NCBI RefSeq assembly: GCF_029945535.1
Contig: NZ_JAQSCU010000006.1
Coordinates: forward strand, 62,001 to 126,000
From: Methylotenera sp.
Lineage (GTDB): Bacteria; Pseudomonadota; Gammaproteobacteria; Burkholderiales; Methylophilaceae
Direction of reading: 5' to 3'
DNA: 64,000 nt
Shown: piece after piece, positions 1,172 to 11,327 of the stretch
Layout: every line of letters begins with the position of its first letter
Numbering within the stretch: the stretch's first letter is position 1
Translations under genes and position numbers: made by a program
The notes under the pieces: generated by a model
Told to the model about the DNA's origin: nothing
Database searches by the model: none
The model's input: the letters and a program-made list of their open reading frames with translations, nothing else

Positions 1172-3601
1172 ATGCAAAAAATGAAATTAGTAGTAGTTGG
1201 TAACGGCATGGCAGGCATGCGTACGGTAGAAGAGTTGCTTAAAATTGCACCTGACATCTACGATATTACTGTGTTTGGTGATGAGCCTTATCCTAACTAC
1301 AACCGTATCATGCTATCGCCAGTGCTGGCGAATGAGCAGACGATTGACGACATCATTCTAAACACGCGTGAATGGTATGCCGAGCATAACATCACGCTAC
1401 ATACCAATGCGCGCGTCAACAAGATTGATCGTAAAAACCGCGTGGTTTATGCTGAAGATGGCACTAGCGCAGAATATGATCGGTTACTTTTGGCTACTGG
1501 TTCCAAGCCATTTATGCCGCCTATCCCGGGCAAAGATCTTGAAGGCGTTTTAGGCTATCGCGACATTAAAGATACTAATGACATGATTGCCGCTGCAAAG
1601 AAATACAAGCATGCGGTGGTAGTTGGTGGTGGTTTGCTTGGTTTAGAAGCGGCTAATGGCTTAAGCATTCAAGGTATGGATGTGACTGTCATCCATAGAA
1701 ACGAATGGTTGTTAGAGAAGCAATTAGATAAAACTGCAGGCATCATGCTGCAAAAATCTTTAGAGGCTAAAGGTCTTAAATTCCATCTGTCTACCAATAC
1801 GGAAACTATCATTGGTGATGAAAACGGCCGTGTTAAAGCGGTTCAGTTTAAAGAAGGCTTTGAGTTGCCTGCTGATTTATTAGTACTTGCTGTAGGGATT
1901 CGTCCGAATTTCGCACTGGCTGAATCTGCTGGTATCCACTGTGACAAAGGTGTGGTGGTGAATGACACCATGCAGACTTTCGATCCACGTGTGTATGCAG
2001 TTGGCGAATGCGTTGCGCATCGCGGTATTTCATACGGTTTAGTTGCGCCGTTGTTTGAAATGGCAAAAGTCTGCGCAACGCATTTAGCTAATTTTGGTAT
2101 TGGTTTATATAAAGGTTCTGTGACGTCAACAAAACTAAAAGTCACAGGGATTGATTTATTCAGTGCTGGCGACTTCACTGGCGACGACGAAACAGAAGAG
2201 ATTGTTTTGCACGATGCAGTTGGTGGGGTATACAAAAAACTCATCATCAAAAACGACAAAATCGTTGGTGGCGTGCTTTATGGGGATACCACGGACGGTT
2301 CGTGGTATTTTCAAATGCTTAGGGATGGCAAGCCTATCCATGAGATTCGTGATCACTTGTTGTTTGGCCCATCTGCGATTGGAGATACTGGCCATCAAGG
2401 TCAAAACCAAGCATCCACCATGACCAATGAAATGGAAGTATGTGGTTGTAATGGCGTGTGCAAAGGTACCATCGTTAAAGCGATTCAGGACCAAGGTTTA
2501 TTCACTATTGATGATGTGAAAAAACAAACTAAAGCAGGTTCAAGCTGTGGTTCATGCGTGGGTTTGGTTGAGCAGATTTTAGCTTCTACTTTAGGCGGCG
2601 GTTATGCGCCACCTTCAACCAGCAAGGCAGTTTGTGGTTGTACCGATAGAAATCATGAAGAAGTCCGTGCGGAAATTCGTACACATAAATACTTAAACAT
2701 TCCAGATGCTATGACGGGCATGGGATGGCGCACGCCGAACGGTTGCGCTACTTGCCGTCCAGCGCTTAACTATTACCTGCTTTCTACTTGGCCGCATGAA
2801 GCAAAAGATGATCCGCAATCACGCTTTATTAACGAGCGTGTGCACGCCAATATTCAAAAAGATGGTACTTATTCAGTGATTCCACGTATGTATGGTGGCG
2901 TAACTACGCCAGACCAACTGCGCAAAATCGCCGATGTTGCCGATAAATATGCCGTGCCTATGGTAAAGGTGACAGGTGGTCAGCGTATTGACTTGTTGGG
3001 CGTGAAAAAAGAAGACCTAGTCGATATGTGGGCAGATTTAGATATGCCTTCTGGATATGCTTACGGCAAAAGTATCCGTACGGTTAAAACCTGTGTGGGT
3101 AGTGAGTTCTGCCGTTTTGGTACGCAAAATTCAACCCAAATGGGTATTGATATTGAAAAAGCATTTGACCACATGTGGGCGCCACATAAAGTTAAATTTG
3201 CAGTTTCAGGTTGCCCGCGTAACTGTGCAGAATCTGGCATTAAAGACGTTGGTATTATTGCGGTAGATTCAGGCTGGGAAATCTATGTAGGCGGTAACGG
3301 CGGTATTAAAACCGAAGCCGCACAATTCTTATGTAAAGTAAAAACCTCTGATGAAGTACTAGAATATTCAGGTGCTTTCATTCAAGTGTACCGTGAAGAA
3401 GCGCGCTACTTAGACCGCACGGTGCATTGGCTAGAGCGCGTTGGTTTGGAGTATGTAAAACAACGCATACTTGAAGATGTAGAAGGCCGTAAAGCCGCTT
3501 ATGAGCGCTTGATTTATACCTTGCAAGGTTCTGTAGATCCTTGGGCTGAGCGTGTGAAAAATCGTGATAAACATAAAGAATTTGAGATTATTGAGGTTTA
3601 A
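1172..3601 (+). CDS. nirB: assimilatory nitrite reductase [NAD(P)H], large subunit
   Basis: Reduces nitrite to ammonium in the cytoplasm with electrons from NAD(P)H via FAD, an Fe-S centre and siroheme. The 809 residues show an N-terminal Rossmann pyridine nucleotide oxidoreductase (GNGMAG near residue 9; second GGGLLGLEAA near 152), a BFD-like [2Fe-2S] domain (Cys424, 426, 459, 462) and the ferredoxin-like and siroheme/4Fe-4S half-domains. The siroheme ligands are seen as C641-x5-C647 and C681-x3-C685. Length is slightly below the usual 830-850. Its partner nirD lies about 3.1 kb downstream, separated from it by the transporter and kinase genes, rather than being adjacent as in enteric bacteria. 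The ATG at 1172 is the only start in the leader consistent with the family. Confidence 0.95.
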   Translation: MQKMKLVVVGNGMAGMRTVEELLKIAPDIYDITVFGDEPYPNYNRIMLSPVLANEQTIDDIILNTREWYAEHNITLHTNARVNKIDRKNRVVYAEDGTSAEYDRLLLATGSKPFMPPIPGKDLEGVLGYRDIKDTNDMIAAAKKYKHAVVVGGGLLGLEAANGLSIQGMDVTVIHRNEWLLEKQLDKTAGIMLQKSLEAKGLKFHLSTNTETIIGDENGRVKAVQFKEGFELPADLLVLAVGIRPNFALAESAGIHCDKGVVVNDTMQTFDPRVYAVGECVAHRGISYGLVAPLFEMAKVCATHLANFGIGLYKGSVTSTKLKVTGIDLFSAGDFTGDDETEEIVLHDAVGGVYKKLIIKNDKIVGGVLYGDTTDGSWYFQMLRDGKPIHEIRDHLLFGPSAIGDTGHQGQNQASTMTNEMEVCGCNGVCKGTIVKAIQDQGLFTIDDVKKQTKAGSSCGSCVGLVEQILASTLGGGYAPPSTSKAVCGCTDRNHEEVRAEIRTHKYLNIPDAMTGMGWRTPNGCATCRPALNYYLLSTWPHEAKDDPQSRFINERVHANIQKDGTYSVIPRMYGGVTTPDQLRKIADVADKYAVPMVKVTGGQRIDLLGVKKEDLVDMWADLDMPSGYAYGKSIRTVKTCVGSEFCRFGTQNSTQMGIDIEKAFDHMWAPHKVKFAVSGCPRNCAESGIKDVGIIAVDSGWEIYVGGNGGIKTEAAQFLCKVKTSDEVLEYSGAFIQVYREEARYLDRTVHWLERVGLEYVKQRILEDVEGRKAAYERLIYTLQGSVDPWAERVKNRDKHKEFEIIEV

Positions 3602-3650
3602 AAACCTGCTGACAGCAATGGAAGGTCGGACTTAAGTTCGCCCTATTTCA

Positions 3651-3693
3651 CTCACGTGGCATCTCGACTTGAATTGTCTAGATGCTACGTGAG
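3651..3693. repeat. intergenic hairpin between nirB and the nitrate transporter
   Basis: The arms CTCACGTGGCATCT (3651-3664) and AGATGCTACGTGAG (3680-3693) pair over 14 positions with one G-T wobble and a 15-base loop. There is no following U-tract, so it may be an mRNA processing or stability element that sets the ratio of nirB to the downstream genes, or a remnant of an intergenic repeat. A near-palindrome centred on ACTTAAGT (3624-3643) lies just upstream. Confidence 0.55.
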
Positions 3694-3748
3694 AATGGTT
3701 AAAGTTGTCGTGTGTTGCGTAACAAGATAATGAGTTCAAAAAGGAAAT

Positions 3749-4957
3749 ATGATGCAAAAAAGTTTTTGGCAAGTAGGACATAAACCAACGCTGTTCTCAG
3801 CGTTTCTATACTTTGATTTAAGCTTTATGGTATGGGTATTACTCGGGCCATTAGCGGTGCAAATCGCTGCTGATTTACATTTATCGCCTGCACAAAAAGG
3901 CTTGATGGTGGCAACGCCAGTATTGGCTGGTGCACTATTACGTATTGTTATGGGCGTGTTGGTCGATCAAATCAAACCAAAAATGGCTGGTTTAATTGGT
4001 CAAATTATTGTGATATTAAGTTTGCTTATGGCGTGGCTACACGGCATAGAAACTTTTCAGCATGCGCTTATGTTGGGCATAGGCTTAGGTTTTGCTGGCG
4101 CCGCGTTTGCAGTTGCTTTGCCGCTTGCAAGCCGCTGGTATCCGCCAGAGCATCAAGGTACAGCGTTAGGTATTGCTGGTGCAGGCAACTCAGGCACCGT
4201 GTTTGCTGCATTGTTTGCGCCAAGTTTAGCTGTAGCTTATGGTTGGAATAATGTATTTGGTTTGGCGTTAATTCCGTTAGGCATTGCGATGTTTGTGTAC
4301 ATCATTTTTGCAAAAGATAGCCCAGATGCGCCGCCAGCTAAGTCACTTAGCCAATACGTGGCTATTCTGAAAGACAAAGACGCTTGGTGGTTTATGTTTT
4401 TTTACAGCGTGACTTTTGGTGGTTTTGTTGGTTTAGCTTCATCACTCACTATTTACTTTAATGATCTTTATAGCCTAGGTGCAGTTAAGGCGGGTTACTG
4501 TACAGCAGCATGTGTTTTTGCCGGCTCACTAGTTCGCCCAATTGGCGGCTTGGTAGCTGATCGTATCGGCGGCGTTCGCACACTATTAACTATGTACAGC
4601 ATTGCAGCTGTGTTACTCGTGATTATGAGTTTTGGTCAACCGACTTATCAGTTAGCACTTGCGATTATTATCCCTGTGATGGCGATTTTAGGTATGGGTA
4701 ATGGCGCCGTGTTTCAATTGGTACCACAACGCTTCCGTAAAGAAATCGGTGTGATGACTGGCTTGGTGGGTATGGCTGGCGGTGTAGGTGGTTTCTACCT
4801 TGCGGCAAGTTTAGGCTACTTTAAACAAACTCACGGCAACTACCAAATTGGTTTATTGATATTCGCTGGTTTGGCTGTGTTAGCGATGATAGGTCTAGCT
4901 GGCGTTAAAACCAGATGGAGAACTACTTGGGGCAGTGTAACAACAGCTAAAGTTTAA
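3749..4957 (+). CDS. narK: nitrate/nitrite transporter, MFS NarK/NasA family
   Basis: A 402-residue major facilitator with about 12 membrane spans. Two nitrate-signature stretches are visible, GAGNSGTVFAALFAP in the N-half and GMGNGAVFQLVPQRF in the C-half; both are family hallmarks. It should import nitrate (possibly in exchange for, or together with, nitrite) for the reductases encoded around it. A good Shine-Dalgarno (AAAGGAAAT) precedes two adjacent ATG codons at 3749 and 3752. The assimilatory setting argues for a NasA role rather than respiratory nitrite export. Which of the NarK1/NarK2 types it belongs to cannot be settled by eye. Confidence 0.92.
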   Translation: MMQKSFWQVGHKPTLFSAFLYFDLSFMVWVLLGPLAVQIAADLHLSPAQKGLMVATPVLAGALLRIVMGVLVDQIKPKMAGLIGQIIVILSLLMAWLHGIETFQHALMLGIGLGFAGAAFAVALPLASRWYPPEHQGTALGIAGAGNSGTVFAALFAPSLAVAYGWNNVFGLALIPLGIAMFVYIIFAKDSPDAPPAKSLSQYVAILKDKDAWWFMFFYSVTFGGFVGLASSLTIYFNDLYSLGAVKAGYCTAACVFAGSLVRPIGGLVADRIGGVRTLLTMYSIAAVLLVIMSFGQPTYQLALAIIIPVMAILGMGNGAVFQLVPQRFRKEIGVMTGLVGMAGGVGGFYLAASLGYFKQTHGNYQIGLLIFAGLAVLAMIGLAGVKTRWRTTWGSVTTAKV

Positions 4958-4988
4958 GTTAGCAGAAATAGCGCTGTAAAATAGCCCC

Positions 4989-6683
4989 ATGTCATTAAAA
5001 TTTGAAATAGGCCAATCCAGCCTAACCGGTCCGCGCACACGTAATGAAGATTACGTGGGTGTGGTCACACCAGCGAGTGCGCAGTTAAGCATTAAAGGCG
5101 CACTGTTGGCGGTAGCGGATGGCGTCAGCGGCAATGCAGGTGGTGGTGAAGCCTCTGAAATGACCATGCGCACGGTGACCTCAGATTACTACGCCACACC
5201 AGATACATGGGAACCACTGACGGCACTAGATAAAGTGCTGACAGCAGCCAATCGCTGGCTAATCGCCCAAGCGAATGCAAACCGCGATATGGTTGGCATG
5301 GCGACTACGCTTTCGTTATTGGTATTGCGTGGGCAGCATTATTATTCGGCCCATGTGGGCGATACGCGTATTTACTTGCTGCGAGATGGCAAGTTAAAGC
5401 AACTCACTACTGACCACGTGTGGGATAGACCTGAAATGCGCCACGTGTTAAAGCGCGCAGTTGGTTTAGACCGACATTTAGAAGTGGATTATGCAGATGG
5501 CACGCTTCAAGTCGGCGACGTATTTGCTTTGATGAGTGATGGTGTTTGGGATGTGCTAGGCGAGCAAAATATTCATAAAACGATGGCGCTTTATGACAGC
5601 CCGCAAATGATTTGCGACGAACTCACTAAATTAGCCATTGAAAAAGGCAGCACCGACAACAGCACGGCGGTTGCCGCCAGAATTACGCAACTTGGCGAAG
5701 AAACCCTTTCTGAGTTGTTAGCTGACGGTAAACACCTAGTTGTGCCAAATAAATTGCAGGTAGGCGAAACCATAGATGACTTCGAAGTGACCGAGGTTTT
5801 ATATGAATCTCGCGCAAGTTTGTTATACAAAGTACGTCACCTCAACAGTCGGCAGCTTTTTGTATTAAAAACATTGCAGCCCTTATTAGCCAATGATGTC
5901 GATAGTTGCAATGGCTTGCTTAATGAGGAGTGGCTGGCAAAGCGCGTGGTTTCTCAATATGTGCCGCAAGTATTCCCAGTGGCCGCAGAGAAACGCAGCA
6001 AACTTTATTATGTGATGAGCTGGCATGAAGGTTCGACGCTGCAACAGCGCTTAGATAGCGGGCATCATTTTACTGTAGCTGGCGTGGCTAAAGTCGGTAT
6101 AGATTTGTTACGCGGTGTGGCGGCATTGCACCGACTCAATATCGTACATCGGGATATTAAGCCGGATAACATTCATCAAGCGACAGATCAGCGATTGCGT
6201 ATTTTGGATTTAGGTGTAGCCTTAAGTAGCATGATTGTTGCCACAGAGATGACACAAAACCCTGGTACACCGAGCTTTATGGCACCAGAGTTATTTGATG
6301 GTACGCCAGCCACAGTACAGAGTGATATTTATGCTGCAGGTGTCACGCTTTATCATTTACTTACCCGTAAATATCCGCATGGTGAGATTGAGCCGTTTCA
6401 ACGCCCAAAATTTGGTGAGCCGATTCCACCAACAAGATATAGACCAGATATACCGTATTGGTTAGAGAATATTATTCTTAAAGCCATTGCGCGCGATATA
6501 AAGGTGCGTTTTGAAACGGCAGAAGAAATGCTGTTAGCACTTGAACATGGCGAGTTAAAGCCAATTTTAGCACCAGCACGCACACCACTTATTGCGCGAG
6601 CTAGATTAGTTAAATGGCAGTGGATCGCAATTTTTTCATTTGTAATCAATCTGCTGTTAATTTATTTGCTGATTGTTTCATAA
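4989..6683 (+). CDS. bifunctional PP2C-type phosphatase / Ser-Thr protein kinase, membrane-anchored
   Basis: The 564 residues form a fusion. Residues 1-235 are a PP2C (PPM) phosphatase with the metal-binding signatures ADGVSG (43-48), VGDTRIY (123-129), SDGVWD (183-188) and DNSTAV (223-228). Residues 265-525 are a eukaryotic-like kinase with the ATP-binding lysine K294, catalytic H387-R388-D389 with K391 and N394, DLG (407-409) in place of DFG, and MAPE (431-434). A single C-terminal membrane span (about 546-564) tethers it to the membrane with both domains cytoplasmic. It lies 31 bp after the transporter gene and before nirD, so it is probably co-transcribed. By position it may reversibly phosphorylate the transporter or reductase; that target is inference. 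Confidence 0.9.
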   Translation: MSLKFEIGQSSLTGPRTRNEDYVGVVTPASAQLSIKGALLAVADGVSGNAGGGEASEMTMRTVTSDYYATPDTWEPLTALDKVLTAANRWLIAQANANRDMVGMATTLSLLVLRGQHYYSAHVGDTRIYLLRDGKLKQLTTDHVWDRPEMRHVLKRAVGLDRHLEVDYADGTLQVGDVFALMSDGVWDVLGEQNIHKTMALYDSPQMICDELTKLAIEKGSTDNSTAVAARITQLGEETLSELLADGKHLVVPNKLQVGETIDDFEVTEVLYESRASLLYKVRHLNSRQLFVLKTLQPLLANDVDSCNGLLNEEWLAKRVVSQYVPQVFPVAAEKRSKLYYVMSWHEGSTLQQRLDSGHHFTVAGVAKVGIDLLRGVAALHRLNIVHRDIKPDNIHQATDQRLRILDLGVALSSMIVATEMTQNPGTPSFMAPELFDGTPATVQSDIYAAGVTLYHLLTRKYPHGEIEPFQRPKFGEPIPPTRYRPDIPYWLENIILKAIARDIKVRFETAEEMLLALEHGELKPILAPARTPLIARARLVKWQWIAIFSFVINLLLIYLLIVS

Positions 6684-6745
6684 ATAGTTTCGTAAATTTG
6701 TTAATAAGTTTAAATGTCCGTAAGTTTGAGTTAAGGTAAAAAATC

Positions 6746-7075
6746 ATGAGTAACTGGGTAAAAGTAGCGCCATTTGAAGACATTCCAAAGTTAGGCGCGC
6801 GCGTTGTTCGCACAACAAACAAAGACAATATCAGCGTTGATATTGGCGTATTCCGTTTAGAAGATGACCGCATATTCGCCGTCAATAACAGCTGCCCACA
6901 TAAAGGTGGGCCACTGTCAGAAGGCATCGTATATGGCGATAAAATTGCTTGTCCGCTACATAGCTGGAAAATCAGTTTAGTCGATGGCAAAGCAGAAGAG
7001 CCAGATGTCGGTGAAACTGCCTGTTTTAACACCAAGGTTGAAGACGGCGTTGTGTATTTAGAGTTAAAAGACTAG
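6746..7075 (+). CDS. nirD: nitrite reductase [NAD(P)H], small subunit (Rieske-type)
   Basis: A 109-residue Rieske-like [2Fe-2S] protein with both ligand pairs visible, CPHKG near residue 51 and CPLHSW near residue 71. This matches NirD, the accessory subunit of NirB. Full Rieske ligation is kept, whereas some NirD proteins lack it. It lies 62 bp after the kinase gene with an AAGGT-type ribosome site, and 67 bp before nasA, supporting one nitrate/nitrite operon. Confidence 0.92.
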   Translation: MSNWVKVAPFEDIPKLGARVVRTTNKDNISVDIGVFRLEDDRIFAVNNSCPHKGGPLSEGIVYGDKIACPLHSWKISLVDGKAEEPDVGETACFNTKVEDGVVYLELKD

Positions 7076-7142
7076 TTTAATTAAAGCTAGTCTAACTAAG
7101 ACTCAAATTCCTAAAAGAACCAAATTTAAAGTTCAGCTAAAA

Positions 7143-9857
7143 GTGATTAAAGAAACCAAATCGACTTGTTGTTACTGCGGCGTTGGCTGCGGCGTCATCA
7201 TATCTAGCCAAAATGACAAGATTATTGACATCAAAGGTGACCCTAATCACCCCGCTAACTTTGGGCGCTTATGCACCAAAGGGGCTACGCTGCATCTTAC
7301 TGCCAAGCTTGATAATCGCCTGCTTTATCCTGAAATGCGTCTAACACGTGAAGCAACGCGCAAACGTGTTTCTTGGGACGACTCACTTAACTACTTAACT
7401 GAACAATTTGCGCAAACCATAGAAAAGCACGGCCCTGACTCCGTTGCTTTCTATATTTCAGGTCAATTGTTAACTGAAGATTATTATGTGTTCAACAAAC
7501 TCGCCAAGGGTTTGATTGGTACCAATAACGTCGATACGAATTCACGTCTTTGCATGAGTTCTGCTGTCACGGGCTACAAAGCCACACTGGGTTCAGATGC
7601 ACCACCAGCGTGTTATGAAGATATAGACTCTACCGAATGCTTATTTATCACGGGTTCAAATACTGCATTTGCACACCCGATTATTTTCCGCCGCATTGAA
7701 GATGCTAAGAAAAATAATCCAAATCTGAAAATTATTGTGGTTGACCCACGCCGCACGGATACTGCGCAAGCGGCAGATTTGCACTTGGCTATTTTGCCTG
7801 GTACAGACGTCGCTTTATATAACGGTATGTTGCACGTATTACTGTGGGAAGGCTTGCTGGATATGGCTTTCATCAAGGCTCATACCAATGGTTTTGATGC
7901 GCTAAAAGATACCGTGCGCGAATACACACCAAAAATGGTGGCAGATATTTGCGGCATTAAAGAAGCGGATATTATCACGGCGGCTAAATGGTTTGGTAAA
8001 GGCCCTAGCCTTTCTATGTATTGCATGGGTTTGAATCAAAGCATACACGGCACAGATAAAAATGCGGCCTTAATTAACTTGCATTTAGCCACTGGGCAAA
8101 TTGGCAAGCCAGGTGCAGGGCCATTCTCACTGACAGGTCAACCTAACGCAATGGGCGGACGTGAAGTGGGAGGCATGGCGAATTTATTATCTGCTCACCG
8201 CGATTTAGCAAACCCAGAACACCGCGCAGAAGTTGCTAATTTTTGGGGTGTAGAAAGCGTACCAGCAACGCCTGGTAAAACGGCGATTGAAATGTTTGAT
8301 GCCGTGAAAGATGGCAGCATTAAAGCCATTTGGATTGCCTGCACCAACCCCGCGCACTCTATGCCAGATGTGAATAATGTGATTACTGCCTTACAAAATG
8401 CGGAGTTGGTGGTAGTACAAGATGCCTATAACAACATCGACACCAACCAATATGCGGATGTGTTGTTACCAGCTAGCACTTGGGGCGAGAAAGAAGGCTC
8501 AGTCACAAACAGCGAGCGACGCATTACCCGCGTCAATCCTGCCGTTCCAACGCCAGCAGAAGCGCGCCATGACTGGGCGATTATGGTCGATTTTGCACAA
8601 CGTTTAGAAAAACGTTTAGCAAAAAATTCCAACTTGTTTCCATATACAACGACTGAAGAAATCTTCAATGAACACCGCGAAAGTACACGTGGTCGAGATT
8701 TAGATATTACTGGCTTAAGCTATAGCTTGCTTAACGAGCAAGGCCCACAACAATGGCCGTTCAAGGCTGGCGATACCACTGGCGCAGCGCGTTTATACAC
8801 GGATGGCGTGTTTCAAAAACCAGACGGCAAAGCACAGTTCGTCAATACTATCTACAAAGGCACTGCTGACAAAACTGATGCGCGTCATCCGCTACATTTA
8901 CTCACAGGCCGCTTGCGTGACCAATGGCACGGTATGAGCCGCACAGGTACGGTGGCGCAACTGTTTAACCATGCCGAAGAACCTGTGATACAAATGAACG
9001 CAGATGACATGATGCGCCGCTCCATCAAAAATGGTGACATTGTTAAAGTGAGTAATAAACGCGGTAGTTTAGTGTTGGCAGCCCAATTGTCTGATGAAGT
9101 GCAAGCTTCACAAACCTTTATAGCGATGCATTGGGGCAGCCAATTTATGCACGGTTTGGGCGTGAATGCATTAATGCCGCCAACTTTTGATAAAATTTCA
9201 AAACAACCCGAGCTTAAACACACCGCAATCAAAATTGAAAAGCTAGAGTTGCCGTGGCGCATGACTGTGATGCGCACCATTCAGAACTTAGATATGCTGG
9301 AAAAAGTTCGTGGATTATTAGCCAACTTTGACTATGCGACTTGCGGTTTATTTGGTCGAAAAACTGACCATCATGTCGGTATGCTGATTTTACGCGCTGC
9401 CCACACGCAAGCGCCAACTAGTGCATTGATAGAACAGATTGACCAAATACTGGAGATGACAGATGACATGCCATTGCTCAACTATCAAGATGCAAAACGC
9501 GGCATTAGCAAACGCATTTTAGTCAGTAACCATAGTGGAAAACCAGAAGTTACTGGCGTACGCTTGGTAGGTGAAACACTCGCTACCGATTGGCTGAAAG
9601 AAGTCATGACTTCAGGCGAATTTACAGCAGAACTTCGCCGCTGGGCGCTCGCACCACTGAGCACTCCGCCAGCAGGGCAACGCAGCCGTGGCAAGATTAT
9701 TTGTAATTGTTTAGATGTCGCCGAAAACGATATTATCGAAACCATACAGCTGGGCGCAGACTTGATTACTCTGCAAAATAAACTGAAATGCGGCACAGAG
9801 TGCGGTTCTTGCGTTCCGGAGCTTAAACGTTTAGTCGCGGCAAATAGCAAACATTAG
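7143..9857 (+). CDS. nasA: assimilatory nitrate reductase, catalytic subunit
   Basis: Reduces nitrate to nitrite in the cytoplasm. The 904 residues contain an N-terminal [4Fe-4S] motif (C9-x2-C12-x3-C16-x27-C44), the molybdopterin oxidoreductase body with a likely Mo-ligating Cys137 (RLCMSS), a molydopterin dinucleotide-binding domain, and a C-terminal BFD-like [2Fe-2S] domain (C854, C856, C887, C890). This is the NasA layout found where electrons arrive from a flavoprotein or ferredoxin. No nasB/nasC reductase gene is in the window. The start is a GTG with a weak ribosome site, so a few residues of uncertainty remain. The cluster ends here, facing the convergent diguanylate cyclase gene. Confidence 0.94.
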   Translation: MIKETKSTCCYCGVGCGVIISSQNDKIIDIKGDPNHPANFGRLCTKGATLHLTAKLDNRLLYPEMRLTREATRKRVSWDDSLNYLTEQFAQTIEKHGPDSVAFYISGQLLTEDYYVFNKLAKGLIGTNNVDTNSRLCMSSAVTGYKATLGSDAPPACYEDIDSTECLFITGSNTAFAHPIIFRRIEDAKKNNPNLKIIVVDPRRTDTAQAADLHLAILPGTDVALYNGMLHVLLWEGLLDMAFIKAHTNGFDALKDTVREYTPKMVADICGIKEADIITAAKWFGKGPSLSMYCMGLNQSIHGTDKNAALINLHLATGQIGKPGAGPFSLTGQPNAMGGREVGGMANLLSAHRDLANPEHRAEVANFWGVESVPATPGKTAIEMFDAVKDGSIKAIWIACTNPAHSMPDVNNVITALQNAELVVVQDAYNNIDTNQYADVLLPASTWGEKEGSVTNSERRITRVNPAVPTPAEARHDWAIMVDFAQRLEKRLAKNSNLFPYTTTEEIFNEHRESTRGRDLDITGLSYSLLNEQGPQQWPFKAGDTTGAARLYTDGVFQKPDGKAQFVNTIYKGTADKTDARHPLHLLTGRLRDQWHGMSRTGTVAQLFNHAEEPVIQMNADDMMRRSIKNGDIVKVSNKRGSLVLAAQLSDEVQASQTFIAMHWGSQFMHGLGVNALMPPTFDKISKQPELKHTAIKIEKLELPWRMTVMRTIQNLDMLEKVRGLLANFDYATCGLFGRKTDHHVGMLILRAAHTQAPTSALIEQIDQILEMTDDMPLLNYQDAKRGISKRILVSNHSGKPEVTGVRLVGETLATDWLKEVMTSGEFTAELRRWALAPLSTPPAGQRSRGKIICNCLDVAENDIIETIQLGADLITLQNKLKCGTECGSCVPELKRLVAANSKH

Positions 9858-9905: not shown

Positions 9906-11327
9906 TTAAAGAATGATCGAGTCATCATAAAATCGAATTAAATTTCGACCTTCATCTTTGGCTTTATACATTGCAGCATCAGCCCATTTCATCAGGTCAA
10001 TTTGGCTAGTGTGATCTTTAACAAACACAACAGCGCCAATACTTGCCGTGCACTCAAGCTCTACCACTTTATCTTTCTGCCCAGTATGAGTGACTGTGAG
10101 TAAGTATGGCTTAGATAATGCGTCTAGTATTTTTTCAGCAATTAATTTAGTTTCTGAAATTGACTCTGCTTCATCCAGGCTTAACTCACTCAGTATCACA
10201 ACAAACTCATCGCCACCAAGACGAGCAACCGTATCAACTTCTCTAATGCAGCCTTTTAGGCGGTTAGCAGCTTCAATCAATAGTAAATCACCTGCTTGAT
10301 GTCCATGAGCATCATTGATAGGCTTAAAGTTATCTAAGTCTAGAAACATGAGTGCGCCGTAGTATCCACTTCGCTTACTGGTTGAAATGGCTTTGGTCAG
10401 CCGGTCACCTAACAGGCGTCGGTTGGGCAGCTGGGTCAAGGTGTCATAAAAAGCAAAGTTGCGCACTTGCTCTTCCATATTCTTGCGTTCAGTAATGTCG
10501 GTATGCGTGCCACATATGCGAGTAGCTTTATGCTCGGCATCCCATGAGACTACTTGCGCTTGATCTAGCACCCATTTGTATTCACCACTTTTTGTGCGCA
10601 TGCGGTACTCAAGTGCATGCATTTGAGTGCGCCCTTCAATATTGTCTCGAACTGATTGCCACGCCATTTCACGATCATCCGGGTGAACAAAATCTGCCCA
10701 TTGCCTAACTGTGAACTCAATATTGCTCAATTGATAACCAAGAATCTCTGCCCAGCGCTCATTTCTAGTCACAATATTGTTTTTGATATCCCAATCCCAA
10801 AATCCAAGTTGACTGGCTTTTAATACCAGTTGCAGTCTCTGCTCACTTGCATGCAGTGCAGCTTCGGATTTTTTATATTCATCAACTTCAATGAGTGATG
10901 CTTGAGCAGCTTTTAATGCTTCATATGCATTTAAATGCTCATAGACCTCTTTATCGTACTGAGAAGGTGAGGGCAGCTTGAGGGCTTGAGGGGTGATATA
11001 GACTAATGCGATTGCGGTAACCACTGAAATCGACGCGGTTACGGCTTTCATGCTGGCATCAATCCAATAGATCGGATTCCAAAAAGTCACAATTTCTAGC
11101 AAATGCGTGGTGCCGCATGAAAGAATAAATGCGCTAAATAGCAAAAAAATCCCACGAAATTGCAGGTCTTTTCTGCGCCAGACAAAGTAAGTTAAAGTGA
11201 TAGGAATTGAGTAATACGCCAGCACAATCGCGGCATCGGATAATACATACAACCATAGAAGACTTGGAGACCAGTTAATACAGTATCCATGTGGCAGCAA
11301 ATTGCTTGTATTAAGTAATATCGACAT
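9906..11327 (-). CDS. diguanylate cyclase with ethylene-receptor-like membrane sensor and PAS domain
   Basis: A 473-residue protein. Residues 25-112 hold three membrane spans closely resembling the ethylene-binding domain of plant ETR1: D31, Y38, I41, P42, I68, C71 and H75 align, at a constant offset of 6, with the residues I recall as required for ethylene binding in ETR1 (D25, Y32, I35, P36, I62, C65, H69). The Cys and His are the copper ligands. A short coiled coil (about 125-160) leads to a PAS/PAC domain (161-286) and a GGDEF domain (290-470) with intact GGDEF (371-375) and the inhibitory RxxD site (362-365), so it should make cyclic-di-GMP. It is monocistronic, convergent with nasA. The ligand could be ethylene, copper or another small olefin or gas. 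Confidence 0.9.
   Translation of the reverse strand: MSILLNTSNLLPHGYCINWSPSLLWLYVLSDAAIVLAYYSIPITLTYFVWRRKDLQFRGIFLLFSAFILSCGTTHLLEIVTFWNPIYWIDASMKAVTASISVVTAIALVYITPQALKLPSPSQYDKEVYEHLNAYEALKAAQASLIEVDEYKKSEAALHASEQRLQLVLKASQLGFWDWDIKNNIVTRNERWAEILGYQLSNIEFTVRQWADFVHPDDREMAWQSVRDNIEGRTQMHALEYRMRTKSGEYKWVLDQAQVVSWDAEHKATRICGTHTDITERKNMEEQVRNFAFYDTLTQLPNRRLLGDRLTKAISTSKRSGYYGALMFLDLDNFKPINDAHGHQAGDLLLIEAANRLKGCIREVDTVARLGGDEFVVILSELSLDEAESISETKLIAEKILDALSKPYLLTVTHTGQKDKVVELECTASIGAVVFVKDHTSQIDLMKWADAAMYKAKDEGRNLIRFYDDSIIL

Follow-up and report, generated by a model that had tools for sequence, protein, structure and literature searches.

The Arabidopsis ethylene receptor AtETR1 has a three-helix N-terminal domain carrying seven binding residues, and its output is a GAF-histidine kinase(-receiver). 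AzoEtr1 of Azospirillum brasilense consists of an ethylene-binding domain (EBD), PAS and a terminal histidine kinase, and a response regulator is encoded downstream of its gene. Ethylene binding by AzoEtr1 has been demonstrated, and a cysteine mutant of SynEtr1 does not bind, as stated in PMC11819568. SynEtr1, or UirS (Slr1212), is the Synechocystis sensor with this domain. It changes motility and cell-surface behaviour and is described as having a light-sensing GAF and a histidine kinase output (PMC5812497, PMC7700396). Bidon et al. 2020 (PMC7700396) state that EBDs in bacteria are coupled to outputs absent from plant receptors; non-plant outputs are already in print in general terms. An EBD-linked cyclase was not described among the listed matches of our full-text literature searches, and earlier reviews may already show GGDEF.

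The window analysed here, a stretch of 64,000 nucleotides from Methylotenera sp., encodes a protein that combines such a sensor with a different enzyme (Table 1). It shares the three-helix domain and the seven binding residues with AtETR1, and the order of EBD and PAS and the identical spacing of D, C, H and K with AzoEtr1. In contrast, its output is PAS-GGDEF, with the effector enzyme in the same chain. The Pfam model ETR1_N (PF25487) matched with 128.3 bits against a cut-off of 27 (E 1.4e-37), over model positions 2-97 of 97. Besides ETR1_N, PAS_3 and GGDEF, four further PAS models were the sole Pfam families at E<=1, so neither MASE nor MHYT, which had no match at this threshold, competes for the membrane domain. 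ETR1_N thus won the profile comparison with MASE-type sensors that the sequence-only reading had named. HisKA and HATPase had no Pfam match at E<=1 in the 473-residue protein either, and GGDEF stands in place of the histidine kinase. The NCBIfam matches listed (25 of 30) were all to GGDEF-/EAL-type and PAS-containing models, and only the general GGDEF and PAS domains among them exceeded their own cut-offs. These results confirm that the protein is an ETR1-family sensor joined to PAS-GGDEF and that the match is not due to chance, in agreement with the earlier proposal of a complete plant-type EBD linked through PAS to GGDEF.

Table 1. Features of the EBD-PAS-GGDEF gene, in window coordinates.
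Feature	Position	Strand	Basis or remark
EBD-PAS-GGDEF protein gene	9906..11327	minus	473 aa; ATG start at 11327, end at 9906; ORF, Pfam, 4 syntenic orthologs, purifying selection
PHGxCxxW codons, P12-H13-G14-x-C16-x-x-W19	11271..11294	minus	upstream of helix 1
Ethylene-binding domain (EBD), residues 23-118	10974..11261	minus	Pfam ETR1_N; AlphaFold helices 21-51, 58-83, 87-117
C71 to H75 codons, predicted Cu(I) ligands in helix 2	11103..11117	minus	equivalent to C65/H69 of ETR1
Predicted sensor-PAS linker helix, residues 121-172	10812..10967	minus	full-length model, moderate to low confidence
PAS domain, residues 186-275	10503..10772	minus	PAS_3, 77.4 bits
GGDEF diguanylate cyclase domain, residues 292-462	9942..10454	minus	Pfam GGDEF, 151.3 bits
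I-site REVD	10233-10244	minus	motif residues in alignment A3
GGDEF motif	10203-10217	minus	motif residues in alignment A3

The protein has each of the seven residues on which ethylene binding by ETR1 depends (D31, Y38, I41, P42, I68, C71 and H75), and their spacing agrees with that of the ETR1 residues named in PMC6586836. The spacing from D to C is 40 and from C to H is 4, equal to the spacing in AtETR1 and AzoEtr1, whose printed positions are D25/C65/H69 and D35/C75/H79, respectively (PMC11819568). Aligned with an ETR1 N-terminal query, the EBD showed 38% identity over 95 residues (E 9e-19). In this alignment, the constant numbering offset of 6 given by the sequence-only reading is valid for the seven residues and runs through helices 1 and 2; beyond a gap preceding helix 3, the offset is 3. 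K94 corresponds to the lysine partner of D25 in ETR1, where a change of D25 to asparagine is reported to lower affinity about 100-fold (PMC13012798). Across 157 distinct EBD rows, C71 was kept in 156 and H75 in 154, and the pair at positions 31 and 94 was D-K in 139 rows and N-K in none. All six rows with N31 lacked K94, and K was absent at position 94 in five D31 rows. D31 and K94 thus tend to change together, which fits the prediction of a salt bridge, although five of the six N rows come from one family. We also observed EBD proteins that lack a copper ligand and have an output domain (L113, L116, L230, L231, L233, L284 and L285); the EBD may have a second function there.

We consider the window protein to be probably a Cu(I)-dependent one-component ethylene receptor that sets c-di-GMP synthesis (probability about 0.6), judging from the residues described above and from analogy with the characterised receptors. 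The same scheme is open to a ligand other than ethylene, such as another small soft-ligand gas. It is possible, if unlikely, that the copper site passes a different signal to the cyclase, which could be CO, O2, NO or some other soft ligand. The MHYT domain, another type of copper sensor located in the membrane and often fused to GGDEF-EAL, is reported to sense CO with copper (PMC11347149), and an ethylene source for these bacteria is not evident from the present data. However, the residues kept in the window protein include Y38, I41, P42 and I68, which are not named copper ligands, and AzoEtr1, with the same residue set, is the protein for which binding of ethylene is documented (PMC11819568).

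The motif ahead of helix 1 lies outside the Pfam model and is nearly invariant among the bacterial EBDs examined, with H13 in 152, C16 in 153 and W19 in 156 of 157 rows. Plant ETR1 has a C-x-C pair at this position instead. When twelve more rows were added to the 157 distinct ones, H13 and C16 were both kept in 158 of the 162 proteins having C71 and H75 (an alignment gap explains one of the four exceptions), while six of the seven proteins without C71/H75 were also without H13/C16. On raw counts, this co-loss gave a Fisher p of 5e-8, or 1e-4 in the first 157 rows. When the tree was taken into account, supported branches offered four pairs that were independent of one another (median p of the sign test 0.125), too few for significance, and the co-loss is no more than a suggestion. 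Copper ligands and near-invariant periplasmic H13/C16 that are usually lost together would suit a sensor of copper status, in which the protein would respond to gaining or losing Cu(I) as such. We regard this as very unlikely, since models of ETR1 bury its copper site in the interface of the dimer (PMC6586836) and visual inspection of the 16 largest clusters of shared neighbours revealed no obvious copper-handling gene.

The EBD-PAS-GGDEF architecture (480-codon frame) was found in 4 of 52 genus genomes (G000, G051, G035 and G036) and nowhere beyond these in the samples examined. The window protein is 85-97% identical to the three other orthologs, and whole-protein identity over all six pairs is 81-97%. 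Among the four orthologs, dN/dS was 0.02-0.14 for the EBD, 0.05-0.12 for PAS and 0.04-0.07 for GGDEF, and the linker reached values of up to 0.20; all are rough because synonymous distances are near 1 and, for several pairs, close to saturation. Purifying selection acts on each domain and rules out a decaying gene, an alternative that we considered. The least probable of the explanations that we weighed is that the membrane domain is a mere anchor and PAS the working input. Five EBD-GGDEF proteins of family f22 do have N in place of the aspartate, one of them also without H75, so some EBD-cyclases persist without the full site; in the window clade, however, the seven binding residues are kept in all four orthologs and the dN/dS of the EBD is at about the level of PAS.

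At the output end, the GGDEF motif occupies residues 371-375 and is preceded, at a distance of five residues, by the I-site R362xxD365. Alignment A3, with 10 rows, showed the motif residues G, G, E and F as invariant, together with R362 and D365, and D373 as nearly so. D330, N338 and D347, which we take to be the metal and GTP residues of the GGDEF domain, were also invariant. The catalytic site and the I-site thus appear intact, as for an active diguanylate cyclase, and the sequence-only reading was right on this point. The genome contains one EBD gene, 36 GGDEF matches and 2 PilZ matches, and with this number of GGDEF matches one cyclase may act only locally.

An AlphaFold model of the EBD, built from 68 sequences, showed three helices followed by a signalling helix with a mean pLDDT of 89, and ten-residue blocks from residue 21 on scored 89-97. 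The full-length model (10 rows) was mediocre, with a pLDDT of 75.8, a pTM of 0.46 and values under 50 at residues 164-172, and was therefore used for helix limits only. The EBD had no PDB sequence match at E<=1 and no Foldseek match against the PDB at E<=0.001, so neither search gave a solved relative with which to compare the EBD model. K/R residues occur in the loop from helix 1 to helix 2 but neither ahead of helix 1 nor in the loop from helix 2 to helix 3, suggesting that the N-terminus is outside and that the C-terminus with GGDEF is in the cytoplasm. The EBD is thus predicted to form three membrane helices with the N-terminus out.

If the protein works as an ethylene receptor, the EBD would, by homology, dimerise in the inner membrane with a periplasmic N-terminus and hold Cu(I) by C71 and H75. 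The copper would bind ethylene or another small pi-acceptor, and D31 against K94 may tune affinity, as the ETR1 mutants in the literature suggest. A change in helix packing could then pass via helix 3 and the long helix 121-172, both taken from the structure prediction, to PAS, where PAS domains may add a second, cytoplasmic input. By reorienting the paired GGDEF domains relative to one another, the PAS dimer would change the speed at which c-di-GMP is made, and the product would probably feed back on the enzyme at the I-site; the sites are present in the sequence and their regulation is proposed. Ethylene is reported to regulate the Synechocystis receptor negatively. Biofilm under ethylene is lower in Azospirillum and higher in Synechocystis. 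From the inverse-agonist model of plant receptors and the Synechocystis analogy, ethylene is expected to lower c-di-GMP output, although the sign is unsettled.

To place the protein among its relatives, we use the name Methylophilaceae, within which Methylotenera falls, for family f1 of the search. The EBD is patchy, occurring in 14 of 52 genus genomes and 32 of 187 family genomes. It was found in 27 of 399 genomes of the order sample (25 over the family cut-off), 16 of 369 of the class sample (12 over) and 29 of 398 of the phylum sample (28 over), and in none of fourteen control genomes. Named genomes contained at least 548 confirmed EBD loci, and 63 of the best 80 were labelled as cyanobacterial.

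Outputs were assigned by profiles seeded from these proteins, by motifs in short loci and by Pfam scans of ten representatives. The 33 Methylophilaceae EBD genes, a count that leaves out three small fragments of G042, comprised 4 GGDEF, 20 GGDEF-EAL, 2 disrupted GGDEF-EAL (genomes G112 and G120), 1 HD-GYP type and 6 histidine kinase genes; the 4 GGDEF genes are those of the window protein and its orthologs. A c-di-GMP output was therefore seen in 27 of 33 genes, versus 6 with a histidine kinase. Outside the family, the order sample had 23 EBD genes over the cut-off: 7 encode GGDEF and 14 a histidine kinase, and for 2 no output was found. All 7 GGDEF came from family f22, and the EBD of one member, L108, is nearly identical to that of Chitinimonas prasina (L205). 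The phylum sample, from which the window, a genome below the cut-off and a fragment were excluded, had 29 genes and gave 0 c-di-GMP outputs, 28 histidine kinases (L227 and L228 judged so by eye) and 1 unassigned. In the class sample, 11 further EBD genes on short loci included 2 containing GGDEF (L279 and L281), 5 histidine kinases and 4 with no output found. With relatedness ignored, Fisher tests gave p 4e-12 for 27/33 versus 0/29 and p 2e-4 for 27/33 versus 7/23. Among the best 80 of the at least 548 named loci, 9 of 81 EBD ORFs had c-di-GMP outputs, carried by Methylotenera, the Pseudomonadota MAG L129, Methylicorpusculum, Methylomonas, Methylovorus, Paucimonas, an uncultured proteobacterium, Aphanothece and Chitinimonas. 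EBD-GAF-GGDEF proteins were also found in the sampled genomes, beside the EBD-GGDEF-EAL and EBD-HD types. The earlier statement that this sensor drives histidine kinases holds for many EBD proteins, but the kinase is not the sole output, as GGDEF-EAL, GAF-GGDEF and HD-type proteins exist.

Some of these genes have features of their own. The EBD-GGDEF-EAL genes at L105:6815-9076 and L118:7142-9390, from two relatives, are disrupted, one by an in-frame stop early in GGDEF and the other by two frames across the EBD. In five Methylotenera-genus genomes (L091-L095), an EBD-PAS-PAS-GGDEF-EAL gene lies on the same strand as both flanking genes, which look to us like pyruvate dehydrogenase E1/E2 and lipoyl-dihydrolipoyl dehydrogenase. 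L247:1466-2641, from the same genus, encodes an EBD and an HD domain of HD-GYP type (Pfam HD_5, 139 bits; GYP read by eye), whose family would predict the opposite c-di-GMP activity.

A quick EBD tree of 157 rows and 115 columns, with SH-aLRT support only, was weakly resolved. The four cyclases formed one branch (SH-aLRT 97) within a 14-row branch (95) that also held same-genus histidine kinases, the HD protein, Methylophilaceae and Methylococcaceae GGDEF-EAL proteins and a Tolumonas MAG kinase. To account for the branches with support, the GGDEF label must have been gained or lost at least 2 times and GGDEF-EAL at least 4 times. One sensor thus appears to have been re-plugged into different enzymes, with related sensors in one genus carrying GGDEF, HD-GYP or kinase. 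The GGDEF-EAL and HD-type phosphodiesterase on related sensors make c-di-GMP turnover the recurrent output in the family. More tentatively, and at somewhat less than even odds, we propose that, in this family of C1-metabolising bacteria and even within one genus, one copper-gas sensor has been repeatedly rewired to enzymes for the synthesis of c-di-GMP (GGDEF), for its breakdown (HD-GYP type) or perhaps for both (GGDEF-EAL), that methylotrophs and some methanotrophs would thus read ethylene or a similar gas directly through c-di-GMP, and that the periplasmic PHGxC helps load or cap the copper site.

The genes flanking the cyclase gene are syntenic on both sides in all four carriers, with about 1.2 kb extra between it and the nitrate-reductase-like neighbour in one carrier species. 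In each, the cyclase gene lies end-to-end with a nitrate/nitrite assimilation cluster, with which it is convergent and not co-transcribed, and is divergent from an alkB-like gene. The cluster (window 1172-9857) includes NirB-like, MFS transporter, Rieske small subunit and molybdopterin reductase genes and a fused PP2C phosphatase-protein kinase at 4989-6683. In none of the other 48 genus genomes, many of them fragmented, were nasA-like and alkB-like genes near each other: on one contig in G002, G003, G008 and G009 they are separated by over 0.6 Mb (contig coordinates), and in the remaining non-carriers they lie on different contigs or one is missing. Consequently no empty site is readable in the 48 non-carriers, and, the cluster being convergent, an explanation of the locus through these neighbours was rejected and no functional link is claimed. 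No partner gene was common across lineages of c-di-GMP-type EBD genes, shared neighbours being lineage-specific. Rfam gave nothing over gathering scores in the window, and hence no c-di-GMP riboswitch there. A promoter scan found 3 sites versus 5.5 in shuffles, and a terminator scan 3 versus 1.4.

An earlier hint of a link between ethylene sensing and c-di-GMP comes from Geitlerinema PCC 7105, where the GeiEtr2 gene is grouped with a predicted diguanylate-cyclase-domain gene in PMC6682694; there, in contrast to the window protein, sensor and cyclase domain are encoded by two neighbouring genes. The EBD-PAS-GGDEF-EAL proteins of Methylophilaceae, Methylomonas, Methylicorpusculum and a cyanobacterium have the same sensor, PAS and c-di-GMP enzyme domains, but differ by the extra EAL, and 18 of their 23 rows fall outside the 14-row branch of the window. 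If ethylene controls c-di-GMP, ambient ethylene could set biofilm and motility in methanol- or methane-using bacteria. The window protein would offer a one-protein system for bacterial ethylene signalling, with ligand in and c-di-GMP out and thus no response regulator to identify, and the different outputs on related sensors in one genus would provide a natural set for studying how the EBD transmits its signal. The closest functional parallel is with the MHYT-GGDEF-EAL proteins (MucR, NbdA and CdgB), which work alike in that a membrane copper-gas sensor is fused to c-di-GMP enzymes, although MHYT is a seven-helix domain of another family, whereas the window protein would reach the same output through the three-helix ethylene-receptor domain.
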